Of a DNA stretch of 64,000 nt, positions 10,684-55,924 are shown piece after piece. The first letter of the stretch is position 1. Every line of letters starts with the position of its first letter. Source of the stretch: a virus; the IMG/VR virus record IMGVR_UViG_3300023184_000081, positions 1-64,000 of that record; one strand, given 5' to 3'. The notes below the pieces were generated by a model, which worked only from the letters and a program-made list of their open reading frames with translations, did not search any database and was not told the origin of the DNA. The position numbers and the translations under genes are program-made.

Positions 10684-11346
10684 ATGAAACTTTCTAAGCA
10701 AACAATTGAAATTTTGAAAAACTTTTCTTCTATTAATATGTCTGTTGTATTGAAACCAGGAAGTAAAATCCGAACTGTATCTCCTCAAAAAACTATTTTG
10801 GCTCAAGCGATCGTTTCGGAAACTTTTCCTAAAGAATGTGCGATCTATGACTTGAACATATTCATCAATACATCAGCGATGTTTGAAGATCCAGATTTCA
10901 ATTTCAATGAAAACTCAGTCGAAATTAAAAATGGTCCAGCATTTGCTAGAGTTCCATATGCTAGCATCTCTACCATCGCGACTCCGCCAGAAAAAGATAT
11001 CGTTCTTCCTAGTGTAGATGTGACGTTTACAATTATGAAGGAAGTTATGGCTCAAGCGATCAAAGCTGCAGGAGTTATGTTGCTGCCAGAAGTTGCTCTG
11101 TTGGGGAAGGACGGGTCAGCATCTCTTACTGCGATTGATTCGCGTCAAGATGGCGGTGCTTTCTTTAATTATTTGGTCGGAACTTCTACGACCAATTACA
11201 ATATGATTTTTAAAGTAGAAAATTTGAAGTTACTTCCTCGCGACTATGATGTTACTGTCTCCGCCAAAGGAATTGCAAATTTCAAATCCAAGACTGGTGA
11301 TATCGAGTATTGGATTGCAACAGAGCAAGGTTCGACTGCCGTCTAA
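10684..11346 (+). CDS. 45: Sliding clamp (DNA polymerase accessory protein), T4 gp45 homologue
   Basis: A 220-residue protein whose N-terminus (MKLSKQTIEILKNFSSIN) closely follows T4 gp45. It continues with the AIYDLNIF segment typical of the family. It forms the trimeric ring that tethers DNA polymerase and, in T4, also activates late transcription with gp33 and gp55. That role fits the late promoters in this window. It heads the T4-like order 45-44-62-regA. Confidence 0.95.
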   Translation: MKLSKQTIEILKNFSSINMSVVLKPGSKIRTVSPQKTILAQAIVSETFPKECAIYDLNIFINTSAMFEDPDFNFNENSVEIKNGPAFARVPYASISTIATPPEKDIVLPSVDVTFTIMKEVMAQAIKAAGVMLLPEVALLGKDGSASLTAIDSRQDGGAFFNYLVGTSTTNYNMIFKVENLKLLPRDYDVTVSAKGIANFKSKTGDIEYWIATEQGSTAV

Positions 11347-11374
11347 CAATTGCAATTTATATTATGGAGTTTAA

Positions 11375-12319
11375 ATGCTTGCTCGTGAAGAATTTTTATT
11401 TGTTGAAAAGTATCGCCCCCACAAAATATCAGATTGTATTCTACCCAATAATCTAAAAACAGTCTTTCAAAAGTTTGTTGATGATAAAGCAATTCCAAAT
11501 CTATTATTGAGTGGTGGGTCAGGAGTCGGAAAGACAACAGTTGCTCGTGCGATGTTGGACGAGATTAATGGCGATTATATTATTATCAACGGATCGATGA
11601 ATGGTAATATCGATACGCTTCGAAATGATATTCGTAATTACGCAGCAACTGTTTCTTTCACTTCTGATCGGAAGTATGTTATATTGGATGAAGCGGATTA
11701 TCTAAATGCTAATTCGACTCAACCTGCTCTTCGTAATTTCATGGAAGAGTTCTCGAGTAATTGTGGATTTATTCTGACCTGTAATTTTAAGAATAGGATT
11801 ATCGCTCCTCTGCATTCTCGATGTTCAGTTATTGATTTTAAGATAGATGCCAGCGAAAAGGCTGAACTTGCGACACAGTTCCTAAAAAGGACTTACACTA
11901 TTCTAGAAGCAGAGGGAATCGAATACGATAAGAGGGTTGTTGCTCAGCTTATCACTAAATTCTTTCCCGATTGGCGTCGTGTTCTAAATGAACTACAACG
12001 TCACGCAGCGACTGGTAAAATCGATGCCGGAATTTTAGCTCAAGTTGCAGATGTCGATTTGAAAGATATTATTAAACATCTTAAAGAGCGTGATTTTACT
12101 TCTATGCGGAAATGGGTCGCGCAGAATAATGCAATGGAAACGAATACTCTCTTTCGCAAATTATATGAATCTGCGTATGATTATCTTAAACCGGAATCTG
12201 TTCCTCAATTAGTTTTAATTCTTGGTGATTATCAATACAAGAGCGCATTCGTTGTAGATCAGGAAATAAACATCGCTGCTTGTTTAACTTCCATCATGGC
12301 TGACTGTCAGTTCAAATAG
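11375..12319 (+). CDS. 44: Clamp loader ATPase subunit, T4 gp44 homologue
   Basis: A 314-residue AAA+ protein of RFC type. FVEKYRPHKISD is at the N-terminus, Walker A (GGSGVGKTT) near residue 46, Walker B (ILDEADYL) near 103, and an arginine-finger-like HSRCSVIDF near 148. With the gp62-like subunit it opens the sliding clamp and loads it on primed DNA. It begins 29 bases after the clamp gene, with a GGAG ribosome site before ATG 11375. Confidence 0.95.
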   Translation: MLAREEFLFVEKYRPHKISDCILPNNLKTVFQKFVDDKAIPNLLLSGGSGVGKTTVARAMLDEINGDYIIINGSMNGNIDTLRNDIRNYAATVSFTSDRKYVILDEADYLNANSTQPALRNFMEEFSSNCGFILTCNFKNRIIAPLHSRCSVIDFKIDASEKAELATQFLKRTYTILEAEGIEYDKRVVAQLITKFFPDWRRVLNELQRHAATGKIDAGILAQVADVDLKDIIKHLKERDFTSMRKWVAQNNAMETNTLFRKLYESAYDYLKPESVPQLVLILGDYQYKSAFVVDQEINIAACLTSIMADCQFK

Positions 12320-50449: not shown

Positions 50450-50508
50450 AGTTGTATATTAAATGGTAGCACAAGCAGTAACTGCTCTTTAAAAATTTGG
50501 AAAATAGT

Positions 50509-50583
50509 GTCCTGTTTGACTTCTGGTGAGGTCACCACCCTTTCACGGTGGCAAGAGGGGTTCGAATCCCCTACAGGACGCCA
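50509..50583 (+). tRNA. tRNA-Glu (anticodon TTC)
   Basis: Acceptor GTCCTGT/ACAGGAC, anticodon arm CCACC-CTTTCAC-GGTGG, T loop TTCGAAT, encoded CCA. Its CCA is also the outer end of a long stem with 50701-50703. Confidence 0.9.
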
Positions 50584-50703
50584 TATTGAAGCGCATTATT
50601 GTCTATTTCGGCGTTCCTCCGATGGGTCAGAGTGTTTATATAGACACCCTGATAAGGAAAACAGTATCCATTGACAAGATATTGGTAGTGCGTTTCAATA
50701 TGG
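50581..50703 (+). ncRNA. Long-stem RNA element A
   Basis: Bases 50581-50595 (CCATATTGAAGCGCA) pair with 50689-50703, 15 pairs including one G-U and no mismatch. Inside, 50626-50635 pair with 50644-50653 as a hairpin. No T arm or anticodon arm is visible. The element fills the gap between tRNA-Glu and element B. It is not a tRNA that I can fold. Confidence 0.55.
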
Positions 50704-50836
50704 TAACATGCAACAGCATGAGAGTAACGTGATACTGGCCAGTAAGCGTTCGGACATGCAATATCTCAAAGCGGAAAGTCATGAGTCCGTAGAGAAAAAG
50801 ATTTCGGTTCGATTCCGAATTGCGTGTGACCATATT
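50697..50836 (+). ncRNA. Long-stem RNA element B with a T-arm
   Basis: Bases 50697-50713 pair with 50820-50836, 16 pairs and one A-G mismatch. At 50803-50819 there is a perfect tRNA T arm (TTCGG-TTCGATT-CCGAA), immediately followed by an acceptor-like TTGCGTG that pairs with CATGCAA at 50707-50713. The intervening 89 bases do not fold into ordinary D and anticodon arms. It could be a tRNA with an insertion or a tRNA-like stable RNA. Confidence 0.55.
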
Positions 50837-50838
50837 AC

Positions 50839-50912
50839 GCGGGATTAGTTAAATGGTATAATTAGAGTTTTCCAAACTCCAGTCATCAGTTCGATTCTGA
50901 TATTCCGCTCCA
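50839..50912 (+). tRNA. tRNA-Gly (anticodon TCC)
   Basis: Acceptor GCGGGAT/ATTCCGC, anticodon loop TTTCCAA, T loop TTCGATT, encoded CCA. One mismatch in the anticodon stem. Confidence 0.82.
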
Positions 50913-50920
50913 TTTGTTGT

Positions 50921-50994
50921 TGGGGATTAGTTAAATGGTATAACCGCGGATTTTGATTCCGCTATCACAAGTTCGATTCTTGTATCCCCTGCCA
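50921..50994 (+). tRNA. tRNA-Gln (anticodon TTG)
   Basis: Acceptor TGGGGAT with a weak first pair, as is usual for tRNA-Gln. Anticodon arm GCGGA-TTTTGAT-TCCGC, T loop TTCGATT, encoded CCA. Confidence 0.88.
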
Positions 50995-51024
50995 GAAAAT
51001 TTTATTTAACAGAAAGGAAATTGT

Positions 51025-51057
51025 ATGAAGCGAAAATCCAAAACACGCAAGACATAG
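51025..51057 (+). CDS. Possible ten-residue basic peptide inside the tRNA array
   Basis: MKRKSKTRKT with AGAAAGGA eight bases upstream, in the gap between tRNA-Gln and tRNA-Lys. The stop overlaps the first base of tRNA-Lys. It may be chance, but the ribosome site is good. Confidence 0.25.
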   Translation: MKRKSKTRKT

Positions 51058-51133
51058 GGAGTGTGGTGTAAAGGCTTGCACAACGGACTTTTAATCCGCT
51101 AAGAGTTAGGTTCGATTCCTACCACTCCCACCA
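51057..51133 (+). tRNA. tRNA-Lys (anticodon TTT)
   Basis: Acceptor GGGAGTG/CACTCCC, anticodon loop CTTTTAA, T loop TTCGATT, encoded CCA. Confidence 0.9.
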
Positions 51134-51206
51134 TATGAAAACACATTCTTTAAGGTCTTGGTCGTTACCAGCCTGGCAAAAACGACGACAGAGTGTGTTT
51201 CCATAT
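51133..51206 (+). ncRNA. Long-stem RNA element C
   Basis: ATATG-A-AAACACATTCT at 51133-51149 pairs with AGAGTGTGTTT-C-CATAT at 51190-51206, 16 pairs and one mismatch. Inside, GTCGTT (51168-51173) pairs with AACGAC (51181-51186), and the CCAG/CTGG within it can pair too. No T arm. It is the smallest of the four long-stem elements and sits between tRNA-Lys and tRNA-Ser. Confidence 0.55.
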
Positions 51207-51216
51207 AGTAGAAAAA

Positions 51217-51308
51217 GGAGAGTAATGCAGCGGGGTTGGTCCTGCGACCAGCCTTGAAAACTGGGTTCTGAGAAATCGGATGGGGTTCGACTCCTCTGCT
51301 CTCCGCCA
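51217..51308 (+). tRNA. tRNA-Ser (anticodon TGA)
   Basis: Acceptor GGAGAGT/GCTCTCC, anticodon loop CTTGAAA, long variable arm, T loop TTCGACT, encoded CCA. Confidence 0.87.
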
Positions 51309-51314
51309 ATTTTT

Positions 51315-51390
51315 GACTCGTTAGCTCAATCGGAAGAGCACATGCCTGTCACGCATGAGGTAAGGGGATCGAAACCCCTACGGGTCGCCA
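51315..51390 (+). tRNA. tRNA-Asp (anticodon GTC)
   Basis: Acceptor GACTCGT/ACGGGTC, anticodon arm CATGC-CTGTCAC-GCATG, encoded CCA. The T loop is ATCGAAA instead of the usual TTCGAAA. Confidence 0.9.
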
Positions 51391-51398
51391 AGAATTAC

Positions 51399-51492
51399 GG
51401 AGATTTGGCTGAGCATGGTTTAAGGCAGCGGATTGCTAATCCGTCGATCGAGGAAACTTGATCCATTGGTTCGAATCCAATAATCTCCGCCA
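51399..51492 (+). tRNA. tRNA-Ser (anticodon GCT)
   Basis: Acceptor GGAGATT/AATCTCC, anticodon loop TTGCTAA, long variable arm, T loop TTCGAAT, encoded CCA. Confidence 0.9.
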
Positions 51493-51506
51493 GAATTAAA
51501 AGTTTT

Positions 51507-51602
51507 GCTCCCCAGCACTCGGCGTGCGGCATGCCCTTATAAAGCGTGGAGACTGGTCAGATAGGCTGGAACGGGAAGGTTCAAAACCTTCGGGGAGTAC
51601 CA
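51507..51602 (+). tRNA. Atypical tRNA with long variable region (anticodon uncertain, best TAT)
   Basis: Acceptor GCTCCCC/GGGGAGT, T arm GAAGG-TTCAAAA-CCTTC and CCA are clear. The 61 bases between do not give a clean D and anticodon arm. The most regular reading is ATGCC-CTTATAA-AGCGT with anticodon TAT (Ile, AUA codon). It has a mismatch next to the loop and an extended variable region unusual for tRNA-Ile. Confidence 0.55.
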
Positions 51603-51607
51603 AATTT

Positions 51608-51685
51608 GGTGAGGTGGCAGAGTGGTCAAATGCAAGAGCCTGCAAAACTCTAAAATCGTCGGTTCGAATCCGACCCTCACTTCCA
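51608..51685 (+). tRNA. tRNA-Cys (anticodon GCA)
   Basis: Acceptor GGTGAGG/CCTCACT, anticodon loop CTGCAAA, T arm GTCGG-TTCGAAT-CCGAC, encoded CCA. Confidence 0.88.
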
Positions 51686-51690
51686 AACTT

Positions 51691-51765
51691 GCCCTGTTAG
51701 TTCTAGTGGTAAAACGTCGGTTTTGTAATCCGAATTCGGGTGTTCGATTCACCCACGGGGCACCA
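51691..51765 (+). tRNA. tRNA-Thr (anticodon TGT)
   Basis: Acceptor GCCCTGT/ACGGGGC, anticodon loop TTTGTAA, T loop TTCGATT, encoded CCA. Confidence 0.9.
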
Positions 51766-51772
51766 AAGAAAT

Positions 51773-51865
51773 GGAAGTATTGATGCTATGGCGTGTGCAT
51801 CCCGAGACTGTAAATCTCGTCCCTCAGGGTAAACATTACTGGTTCGACTCCAGTTACTTCCACCA
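51773..51865 (+). tRNA. tRNA-Tyr (anticodon GTA)
   Basis: Acceptor GGAAGTA/TACTTCC, anticodon arm CGAGA-CTGTAAA-TCTCG, long variable arm, encoded CCA. Confidence 0.92.
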
Positions 51866-51872
51866 GATTTAT

Positions 51873-51947
51873 TCCTCGATAGCTCAGCGGTAGAGCAGTT
51901 GACTGTTAATCAATTGGTCCGTGGTTCGATCCCACGTCGAGGAGCCA
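51873..51947 (+). tRNA. tRNA-Asn (anticodon GTT)
   Basis: Acceptor TCCTCGA/TCGAGGA, anticodon loop CTGTTAA, T loop TTCGATC, encoded CCA. Confidence 0.92.
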
Positions 51948-51956
51948 GTATCAAAA

Positions 51957-52032
51957 CGGTGTGTAGCTCAGCTGGTAGAGTGCGTGGTTTGGGACCATGA
52001 GGTCGGGAGTTCGAAACTCTCCACACCGACCA
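51957..52032 (+). tRNA. tRNA-Pro (anticodon TGG)
   Basis: Acceptor CGGTGTG/CACACCG, anticodon arm CGTGG-TTTGGGA-CCATG, encoded CCA. Confidence 0.92.
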
Positions 52033-52037
52033 GAATT

Positions 52038-52124
52038 GCAAGTGTGATGGAACAGGTATACATAAGAGACTTAAAATCTCTCGCTCGCAAGGGCATGCGG
52101 GTTCGATTCCCGCCACTTGCACCA
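52038..52124 (+). tRNA. tRNA-Leu (anticodon TAA)
   Basis: Acceptor GCAAGTG/CACTTGC, anticodon arm AGAGA-CTTAAAA-TCTCT, long variable arm, encoded CCA. Confidence 0.92.
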
Positions 52125-52140
52125 TAGTGATTCAGTATTT

Positions 52141-52216
52141 GGGGGTGTAGCTCAGTTGGGAGAGCGTATGCTTTGCAAGCATAATGTCGTCGGTTCGATC
52201 CCGTCCATCTCCACCA
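52141..52216 (+). tRNA. tRNA-Ala (anticodon TGC)
   Basis: Acceptor GGGGGTG/CATCTCC with two G-U pairs, anticodon arm TATGC-TTTGCAA-GCATA, encoded CCA. Confidence 0.92.
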
Positions 52217-52224
52217 GATTTAAT

Positions 52225-52298
52225 GCCTCGGTAGTTTAACGGTAAAACGCCATCCTTACACGGTGGATTCGGGAGTTCAACTCTCCAACGAGGTACCA
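52225..52298 (+). tRNA. tRNA-Val (anticodon TAC)
   Basis: Acceptor GCCTCGG/ACGAGGT with one mismatch at the inner end, anticodon arm CCATC-CTTACAC-GGTGG, encoded CCA. Confidence 0.87.
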
Positions 52299-52307
52299 AA
52301 AAGTTTT

Positions 52308-52384
52308 GCCCCGGTGACGGAATTGGCATACGTGTCGGTCTTAGAAGCCGAATTTTAGGAGTTCGAGTCTCCTCTGGGGCACCA
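52308..52384 (+). tRNA. tRNA-Leu (anticodon TAG)
   Basis: Acceptor GCCCCGG/CTGGGGC, anticodon loop CTTAGAA, short variable region for Leu, encoded CCA. Its CCA begins the stem of element D. Confidence 0.85.
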
Positions 52385-52548
52385 TAAGTAACTGCATTGG
52401 TAAGGAAAGACAATGTTCATAGACTCTCGAGGGAATATGTTCATACCTCCGCTGCAGCGGAGAAAAGGAGGATGGGCAAGCGATGATTTGGGGATTTTAG
52501 ACATCTCCTCTAGCTGGATACCCCACCTGCCAGTGCAGTTTCTTATGG
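52382..52548 (+). ncRNA. Long-stem RNA element D
   Basis: Bases 52382-52400 pair with 52530-52548 over 19 positions, 18 pairs and one T-T mismatch. Inside are a perfect hairpin CTCCGC-TGCA-GCGGAG (52447-52462) and a possible TGGGG/CCCCA helix. No T arm or anticodon arm is visible. The stem starts in the CCA of tRNA-Leu and its far strand ends in the first two bases of tRNA-Met. Confidence 0.6.
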
Positions 52549-52622
52549 TAATGTAGCATAGTGACTAATGCAGTTCCTTCATACGGAAAAGATCGTTGGT
52601 TTGAGTCCAACCATTACTACCA
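52547..52622 (+). tRNA. tRNA-Met (anticodon CAT)
   Basis: Acceptor GGTAATG/CATTACT, anticodon loop TTCATAC, T arm GTTGG-TTTGAGT-CCAAC, encoded CCA. Initiator, elongator or lysidine-type Ile use cannot be told from sequence. Confidence 0.85.
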
Positions 52623-52629
52623 AATTTTT

Positions 52630-52706
52630 GCGCCCATAGCTCAGTGGATTAGAGCCAACGGTTTCTACCCGTTAGGTCGGCAGTTCGAATCTGTCTGGGC
52701 GCACCA
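52630..52706 (+). tRNA. tRNA-Arg (anticodon TCT)
   Basis: Acceptor GCGCCCA/TGGGCGC, anticodon arm AACGG-TTTCTAC-CCGTT, encoded CCA. Confidence 0.93.
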
Positions 52707-52712
52707 GTATTT

Positions 52713-52788
52713 ACCATCTTAGCTCAGCGGTAGTAGCAGTGTGTTGATAACGCATTGGTCAGTGGTTCGATCCCACTAGATGGTACCA
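52713..52788 (+). tRNA. tRNA-Ile (anticodon GAT)
   Basis: Acceptor ACCATCT/AGATGGT, anticodon loop TTGATAA, T loop TTCGATC, encoded CCA. Confidence 0.9.
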
Positions 52789-52793
52789 AATTT

Positions 52794-52867
52794 CTCGGTG
52801 TAGTATAATGGCATTACGGCAGCCTCCAAATCTGCTTATGGGAGTTCGATTCTCTCCGCCGGGGCCA
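52794..52867 (+). tRNA. tRNA-Trp (anticodon CCA)
   Basis: Acceptor CTCGGTG/CGCCGGG with two G-U pairs, anticodon loop CTCCAAA, T loop TTCGATT, encoded CCA. Confidence 0.82.
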
Positions 52868-52869
52868 AT

Positions 52870-52945
52870 ATCTCTATAACTCAGCGGACAGAGTTCTTCG
52901 GTCCTAACGAAGCGGTCGCAAGTTCGAATCTTGCTAGGGATGCCA
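52870..52945 (+). tRNA. tRNA-Arg (anticodon CCT)
   Basis: Acceptor ATCTCTA/TAGGGAT, anticodon arm CTTCG-GTCCTAA-CGAAG, encoded CCA. Confidence 0.88.
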
Positions 52946-52950
52946 GTTTT

Positions 52951-53028
52951 AGATGGAGAGCTAGTCTGGTGATTCAGCGCGTGCCTGAAGAGCATGAGAA
53001 CTCAGTTCGATTCTGAGTCCATCTACCA
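52951..53028 (+). tRNA. tRNA-Phe (anticodon GAA)
   Basis: Acceptor AGATGGA/TCCATCT, anticodon arm CGTGC-CTGAAGA-GCATG, encoded CCA. Confidence 0.9.
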
Positions 53029-53037
53029 AAGAACAAT

Positions 53038-53111
53038 GGTGTTGTTAATGTAATGGTTGCATAACTGTCTGTGAAACAGTTAGAGAGGGTTCGATTCCCC
53101 ACTTCACCCCA
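53038..53111 (+). tRNA. tRNA-His (anticodon GTG)
   Basis: Anticodon arm ACTGT-CTGTGAA-ACAGT. The extra G at -1 faces C73, as tRNA-His requires. Acceptor GTGTTGT/ACTTCAC has two mismatches, so it may be slightly decayed. CCA is encoded. Confidence 0.8.
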
Positions 53112-53119
53112 ATAAATAT

Positions 53120-53196
53120 CGGTCCTTAACTCAATTGGATAGAGTGCCAGTCTTCGAAACTGGAGGTTGGGAGTTCGAGTCTCTCAGGATCGGCCA
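53120..53196 (+). tRNA. tRNA-Arg (anticodon TCG)
   Basis: Acceptor CGGTCCT/AGGATCG, anticodon arm CCAGT-CTTCGAA-ACTGG, encoded CCA. Last tRNA of the array. Confidence 0.92.
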
Positions 53197-53219
53197 ATAT
53201 TTTAATGAAAGGAGTTTGT

Positions 53220-53690
53220 ATGAAGAAATTAAATTTGCAAGAGGTTAAAACATTTATAGAAGCGCAAACTCCATCGACCAAAATTTATCTAGGTTGTGAT
53301 TCTGAAAAGTATAAAGCGAATGGTCAATGGTATGCAGATTATATCTTAGCAATTGTTGTGCATATCGACGGATGTCATGGTTGCAAAATCTTCGGTGAAG
53401 TTCACACTGAAAAAGACTATGATGCTAAGGCTAGCAAGCCATCGCTCAGATTGATGCAGGAAGTTTATAAAGTGGCAGAACTTTATCTGAAACTCGGCGA
53501 AGTATTAGAAGGTCGCGATGTAGAAGTGCATCTAGATATTAATCCGGATATGGAATATGGCAGCAGCTGCGTTATCAATCAAGCAGTTGGTTACATAAAA
53601 GGAATGTGTAATGTCATTCCTCTTGTAAAACCCAATGCTTTTGCTGCCAGCTATGCTGCAGATAGACTAAAAAGCATAAGAGTCGCATAA
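53220..53690 (+). CDS. RNase H-like protein of the YkuK (DUF458) family
   Basis: A 156-residue protein. KIYLGCDSEKY near residue 20 (first acidic residue), a central Glu, and VEVHLDINPD near 107 are the YkuK/DUF458 pattern, a predicted RNase H-like nuclease fold. ATG 53220 has AAAGGAG upstream; an ATG at 53205 lies inside that ribosome site. It directly follows the tRNA array. Its substrate is unknown. Confidence 0.75.
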   Translation: MKKLNLQEVKTFIEAQTPSTKIYLGCDSEKYKANGQWYADYILAIVVHIDGCHGCKIFGEVHTEKDYDAKASKPSLRLMQEVYKVAELYLKLGEVLEGRDVEVHLDINPDMEYGSSCVINQAVGYIKGMCNVIPLVKPNAFAASYAADRLKSIRVA

Positions 53691-55709: not shown

Positions 55710-55924
55710 TGAAGACGCCTGCATTTGGAACAAAAGGATACATAATTTTATGTGTAGACGGAAAGTATCGATTTAGAGTCTATACAGAAAAAGATTTTAT
55801 TGATTACGATTTAGCTCACAGCGATTTATGCGTAGAGATAGTGGATAAAGATGCGACTTTTTATTCAGACGATCGCGGCGACAGATTGGATCACAACCCC
55901 TCAACATTAGGATATGACGAATGA
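55709..55924 (+). CDS. Hypothetical protein
   Basis: A 71-residue protein from ATG 55709 (KTPAFGTKGYIILCVDGKYR onward), coupled to the preceding peptide by TAATG. A longer frame from 55544 would run through the ligase end and is rejected. Not recognised. Confidence 0.55.
   Translation: MKTPAFGTKGYIILCVDGKYRFRVYTEKDFIDYDLAHSDLCVEIVDKDATFYSDDRGDRLDHNPSTLGYDE

Follow-up and report, generated by a model that had tools for sequence, protein, structure and literature searches.

CCA-anchored RNA cassettes between phage tRNA genes and their likeness to the intervening segment of permuted tmRNA

The tRNA array and its four long stems

The DNA analyzed here, referred to as the window, comprises 64,000 nucleotides (nt) and is part of an 80.2-kilobase (kb) IMG/VR record (IMGVR_UViG_3300023184_000081). 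The phage looks T4-like, judged from the replication proteins among the open reading frames (ORFs) of the window. An array of transfer RNA (tRNA) genes at positions 50508–53196 covers all twenty amino acids (anticodons as read) and contains four elements, E1 to E4, each framed by a long inverted repeat. A first-pass annotation of the window had proposed four long-stem RNA elements here, and all four repeats are present where it placed them. Their arms measure 20, 20, 18, and 17 nt and are 85–90% complementary, G-U pairs not counted. Long stems are enriched in the array: a scan returned the four element stems and one stem inside tRNA sequence in these 3 kb, compared with 10 in 50 kb of other window sequence. 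The predicted folds of E1, E2, E3, and E4 are each better than 200 of 200 dinucleotide shuffles (z = −6.1, −5.2, −3.9, and −4.4). E1, E3, and E4 are CCA-anchored inter-tRNA cassettes, members of a real, widespread, and apparently undescribed class of phage RNA and not filler; E2 is a tRNA-like RNA.

The left arms of E1, E3, and E4 start inside the CCA of tRNA-Glu, tRNA-Lys, and tRNA-Leu(UAG), respectively, which bears out the earlier observation that three of the stems begin in a tRNA CCA end. We refer to the closing helix as P1. E1 (50581–50703, + strand) follows tRNA-Glu(UUC) (50508–50583, + strand), whose CCA at 50581–50583 supplies the first 3 base pairs (bp) of P1 (50581–50598 with 50686–50703); the core lies between the arms, as indicated by folds and by homologs in the loci L165, L085, and L135. 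E3 (51131–51208, + strand) follows tRNA-Lys(UUU) (51057–51133, + strand), with the CCA at 51131–51133 forming the base of P1 (51131–51149 with 51190–51208) around a core at 51150–51189. E4 (52382–52548, + strand) follows tRNA-Leu(UAG) (52308–52384, + strand), whose CCA at 52382–52384 likewise forms the base of P1 (52382–52400 with 52530–52548). Its right arm overlaps the 5′ end of tRNA-Met(CAU) (52547–52622, + strand), such that the last GG of the arm is formed by the first two bases of this tRNA.

E2 (50704–50832, + strand) is a tRNA-like RNA and not a P1 cassette, with an 8-bp acceptor stem (50706–50713 with 50820–50827), a T-arm at about 50802–50819, and a CCA at 50830–50832. Its own tRNA match is weak (25.3 bits). 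The homologs in L077, L165, L151, and L142 are tRNA-like RNAs with an acceptor stem, a T-arm, and a CCA, and the acceptor covaries across them (CATGCAA/TTGCGTG versus CAGGTGG/CTACTTG). The tandem of E1 and E2 is preserved in L165. In L077, L165, and L151, the left arm of a cassette continues after the CCA of the E2 homolog; by comparison, CCATATT at 50830–50836 (+ strand) of the window appears to be the remnant of such an arm, all that is left of a cassette that once followed E2 and has apparently lost its core and right arm. Since the homologs give E2 its own acceptor and CCATATT belongs to the next cassette, the outer 9 bp or so of the stem first ascribed to E2 are not its own helix. About half of that stem comes from the 3′ arm of E1, and the two stems cannot form together because both use 50697–50703.

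The first-pass annotation had likened the elements to T4 RNA C and RNA D (species 1 and 2 RNAs), which are also small non-tRNA RNAs inside a T4-like tRNA cluster. For E2 the likeness holds in kind, as it is the sole element that resembles these RNAs and shares with rnaC a T-arm near the 3′ end. A broader reading, in which the elements are independent, tRNA-derived stable RNAs of the RNA C/D type that expanded in this lineage, could also draw on the T-arm-like hairpins seen in E2 and in core families such as family 7 (see below), but we regard it as quite improbable. T4 rnaC and rnaD have no long CCA-anchored terminal stem, a comparison with the E2 profile detected no sequence similarity, and E1, E3, and E4 are without tRNA arms, as had been noted from the start; for these three, the analogy is not supported. 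A GGTAAG..CGGAC motif considered as a link between E2 and T4 RNA D was dropped because it is equally an ordinary tRNA D-arm/anticodon-arm.

At the gathering score of Rfam 15, only tRNAs are recognized in the array and no family matches the cassettes; the search of Rfam 15 with E3 and representative cassette cores returned nothing relevant. GOLLD and ROOL, large structured phage RNAs near tRNA islands, of which GOLLD often exceeds 800 nt (PMC12286853), resemble the cassettes in being structured phage RNAs beside tRNA arrays but are far larger and have their own conserved folds; their Rfam models gave no match in the window. In one cassette-bearing relative (L030), a GOLLD RNA (205.9 bits, 11006–11471) lies in the tRNA array, apart from the cassettes. 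None of the open-licence papers searched describes the cassettes.

Spread of the cassettes and anatomy of P1

Relatives were reached through the RNase H-like protein that adjoins the array (PF04308), which led to 36 related loci, many with 9–29 tRNAs; relatives found through DNA ligase have few tRNAs. A scan of the gaps in the PF04308-linked loci revealed the same type of stem repeatedly, beginning in a tRNA CCA. The pattern RAGTGYRYTTCAATATGGT matches at least 120 viral stretches, and a complementary arm lies 59–345 nt upstream of 85 of the 91 right-arm matches examined, nearly all of them within tRNA arrays. Whole viral records contain the pattern in 29 of 30 cases and the reversed pattern in none of 30, and at least 12 of 30 cassette-bearing whole records encode the T4-type capsid protein gp23. 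Among GTDB genomes, only one of 22 pattern matches has a stem, on a short contig from a metagenome-assembled genome (MAG) that carries tRNAs. The right-arm pattern of E4, used as a negative control, gave 3 chance matches in apparent coding sequence without tRNAs.

For a pattern-free test, a 17-nt stretch starting with each CCA was taken and a partner was sought 45–380 nt downstream, with a score of at least 12. CCA-anchored stems were found at 116 of 1485 tRNA 3′ ends in the fetched viral loci and at none once the downstream sequence had been shuffled. Arrays do gain and lose tRNAs, and some elements are tRNA-like, which is what decayed tRNA genes or spacer with complementarity by chance or from repeats would look like. 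The shuffled controls refute this explanation, as do the compensatory changes, strand asymmetry, and core conservation described below, and we assign it a negligible probability. Nine cultured phages, T4 among them, have CCA-anchored stems at 0 of 110 tRNA ends, and similarity searches of cultured phages with the elements and cores gave tRNA or chance matches only.

The cassettes are unevenly distributed over the tRNAs. They follow Glu (30 of 74), Gln (19 of 53), Lys (15 of 52), Leu(UAG) (15 of 56), and Thr(UGU) (9 of 60) and stand behind none of 122 Met, 71 Pro, 70 Asp, 58 Ala, or 56 Trp tRNAs; none was found behind the main Ser tRNAs either. In five loci (L062, L066, L071, L106, and L127), some cassettes are preceded by non-tRNA sequence in which a short hairpin is followed by ACCA or GCCA, possibly representing other tRNA-like RNAs.

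In P1, the CCA is paired with UGG, and the helix encloses a structured core. Its length is fixed, with pairing near complete through bp 17, partial at bp 18, and near random beyond. At bp 16, 64 of 107 elements have a U-G pair and the others mostly C-G or U-A, never A-C; the U-G wobble reappears in stems that are otherwise unlike in sequence (E4, L036, and L039). At bp 8, A-C occurs in 18 elements. A larger, pattern-selected set contains 172 G-U and 10 A-C pairs, obtained with a search that itself favored G-U. Of 99 cassettes, 42 have the next tRNA within 15 nt; where the two overlap, this tRNA mostly begins with the GG of UGG. Since right arms reach into the following tRNA or stop a few bases short of it, P1 often spans the exact tRNA–tRNA junction. 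E4, which ends in tRNA-Met, obeys these rules.

Core families and the link to permuted tmRNA

The elements form 76 clusters, and most of their cores are mutually unrelated; eight core families have at least four members. Family 0 has 11 members; 96.7% of the cells in its consensus structure are paired, 17 pairs are changed on both sides, and this result was matched by 0 of 500 shuffles and by no slid version. Core-only profile searches return the same families, with complementary arms still flanking. P1 of family 7 is kept despite quite different arm sequences, which are still complementary (L098, L105, and L165). Compensatory changes in relatives, named at the outset as the sign that would support the elements, are found in the core helices of family 0 and in families 5 and 7, in which arms change and pairing is kept. 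The view that the tRNA cluster of this T4-like phage harbors structured RNAs under conservation is thus supported. One core can stand behind several tRNAs, such as Leu(UAG)/Lys, Thr/Leu, or Ile/Tyr/Asn, and L031 and L033 are alike in flanks and stem and differ in their cores. From both observations, we infer that cores are exchanged modules.

The core of E3 (GGTCTTGGYCGTTACCRGC...GCAAAAACGRCGACA; core family 5) was used alone as a query, without P1, and found 47 viral stretches. These include 34 distinct elements with both arms placed, 11 behind recognized tRNAs, 14 in the intervening segments of permuted transfer-messenger RNA (tmRNA) genes, and 9 elsewhere; the 42-nt core is almost invariant over all 34, while P1 varies. 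Because selection was on the core, which also set the register, the pair counts of this family are free of selection for pairing. The inner ten pairs comprise 300 Watson-Crick, 31 G-U, 2 A-C, and 7 other combinations, and overall pairing is 89.5%, compared with a maximum of 76.3% over 1000 shuffles.

These counts bear on the idea that the cassettes are mobile at the DNA level, with the arms serving as terminal inverted repeats for movement or recombination between tRNA genes and the RNA helix being incidental. Such a scheme would fit the finding of a single core after various tRNAs as well as in tmRNA, and also the core difference between L031 and L033. A DNA repeat of the kind found in miniature inverted-repeat transposable elements predicts strand-symmetric arm mismatches, G-U being as frequent as A-C, but the core-selected, unbiased set shows 31 versus 2 on the tRNA-sense strand. 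Arms of differing sequence, moreover, stay complementary, and cores covary as RNA. We therefore consider purely DNA-level cassettes very improbable, although mobility or cassette exchange likely belongs to the history of the cassettes. The strand-specific wobble and the conservation of the core show that it is the RNA on which selection acts.

Phages from marine and aquatic settings are known to carry permuted two-piece tmRNA (PMC9004378). The E3 core is part of the intervening segment of a circularly permuted tmRNA gene in at least 14 viral contigs; the permuted tmRNAs around it were confirmed by Rfam (RF04321, RF01850 for the beta and RF01849 for the alpha type) and also called by ARAGORN, with tags such as ANDERFALAA. 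A permuted tmRNA scores above the family cut-off in 16 of 30 cassette-bearing records. Nine intervening segments were readable among the ten best permuted tmRNAs, and all nine are closed by a similar stem. Two of the segments (L285 and L287) have cores with homologs among the P1 cassettes that lie in tRNA arrays; three cores, that of E3 included, are common to cassettes and permuted tmRNAs, and no such shared core was found for E1 and E4. E1, E3, and E4 have the closing helix through the CCA, as do permuted tmRNAs of phages and bacteria. In a bacterial beta-type tmRNA, the same hairpin runs uninterrupted through CCACC, around a core that differs and is shorter. Among 150 genomes from the order to which a Polynucleobacter MAG belongs, only three matches to the E3 core were found, each with one mismatch.

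Judged by sequence, E1, E3, and E4 thus compare most closely with the intervening segment of permuted tmRNA, and E3 has its core in common with such segments. Cassette and segment both lie between a CCA end and a tRNA-like 5′ end, both are closed by a helix through the CCA, and both have the inner motif AAGCAYATTC/GAGTRTGCTT with the same U-G. In contrast to the tmRNA segment, which joins two pieces of one tmRNA, the cassettes join two different complete tRNAs; the outer half of P1 reads ATATTG in cassettes and a short TA in tmRNA, and no acceptor stem is stacked below the cassette P1. The cassettes of the window sit between two complete tRNAs, and the only RF04321 match in their own record is a 25-bit fragment over a tRNA. 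The intervening segments of L281, L282, and L253 appear to have a short ORF in place of an RNA core; the one in L281, MKYIKLFFRCVWVFVLLLAASIILIPLFAITFGVVKGLF, is likely a small membrane peptide.

P1 is the sole feature common to unrelated cores, and it might be all that matters. The cassettes would then be processing or insulation linkers in which P1 keeps tRNAs apart and either directs nucleases or blocks them, the core being a degraded filler loop. The bacterial beta-type hairpin over another core agrees with this, as do the ORFs that seem to replace the core in some intervening segments. The helices of the family 0 core covary, however, and the E3 core stays almost invariant as P1 changes around it, which is not expected of filler. 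A mere linker is accordingly unlikely in our assessment.

Excision, neighboring features, and possible roles

We hypothesize that E1, E3, and E4 are excisable inter-tRNA RNA cassettes that correspond, at tRNA–tRNA junctions, to the intervening segment of circularly permuted tmRNA, and we consider this probable. CCA anchoring, fixed helix length, compensatory pairing, strand-specific G-U, covarying core families, and cores shared across tRNAs and tmRNA are established at the level of sequence comparison. Enzymes of tRNA processing cut the transcripts of permuted tmRNA, whose mature form lacks the intervening sequence (PMC11915505); given the shared architecture and cores, inter-tRNA cassettes should be excised in the same manner. 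In a polycistronic transcript, the left arm, made up of the upstream tRNA's CCA and the 14–15 nt behind it, would pair with the right arm ending in UGG to give a P1 of 17–18 bp. This helix would form co-transcriptionally, cover the CCA, and set it beside the 5′ boundary of the following tRNA. Cleavage by host RNase P at the 5′ end of the following tRNA and 3′-end processing behind the CCA would then free both tRNAs and release the cassette as a P1-closed, exonuclease-resistant RNA, whose core could be a swappable module with its own role.

Two candidate processors were rejected. A phage RNase III was found in none of 19 records, and the RNase H-like protein (PF04308) is present in only 18 of 30 records, many of them fragments. 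The latter, encoded at 53205–53690 of the window and, in many relatives, within the tRNA array or close to it, has a possible role in RNA processing. In bacterial rRNA precursors, the processing stalks cut by RNase III also loop out RNA within a tRNA-containing transcript by means of a long complementary stem; P1 differs in measuring only 17–18 bp and in beginning at a tRNA CCA, as well as in the lack of a phage RNase III, and any cut by RNase III in this stem would be made by the host enzyme.

Several observations weigh against excisable cassettes. Where the following tRNA starts within the UGG, P1 and the acceptor stem of that tRNA are in competition. The preference for certain tRNAs is not predicted by a general processing handle; it may be partly due to shared ancestry. 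A search with the E4 core gave no homolog, and some intervening segments of permuted tmRNAs appear to carry short ORFs and not RNA cores. The sample, in addition, contains fragments and many related phages, and the counts given here do not represent independent events.

The window contains further features of note. Within the array, a tRNA-Ser(UGA) at 51216–51305, missed by ARAGORN, was found with the Rfam tRNA-Sec model, and a class-II tRNA-like gene with a long variable arm and an apparent anticodon UAU (about 51507–51603), also missed by ARAGORN, has clear nucleotide-profile homologs in more than 10 related loci. A tiny ORF (MKRKSKTRKT, 51025–51056) lies between tRNA-Gln and tRNA-Lys, with a ribosome-binding-site-like stretch upstream. 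Beyond the array, the protein encoded at 55921–56427 matches Tad3, a type I Thoeris inhibitor family (PF25185, E = 3e-34).

Since the E3 core is conserved across otherwise unlike contexts, we favor an active role of the released RNA over filler. We further propose, more tentatively and at somewhat less than even odds, a modular phage system in which interchangeable excisable RNAs occupy any CCA/5′-end junction, whether between tRNAs or in permuted tmRNA. In such a system, tRNA maturation would release regulatory, decoy, or anti-defense RNAs, and the tmRNA segment would be functional and not waste. With the cassettes, the gaps in phage tRNA arrays become a defined and widespread RNA class with testable biogenesis. 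Their link to permuted tmRNA and its intervening segment suggests a route by which such segments originate and pass between sites by exchange, and the conserved cores, that of E3 being nearly invariant, imply functions as yet unnamed in phage–host biology.

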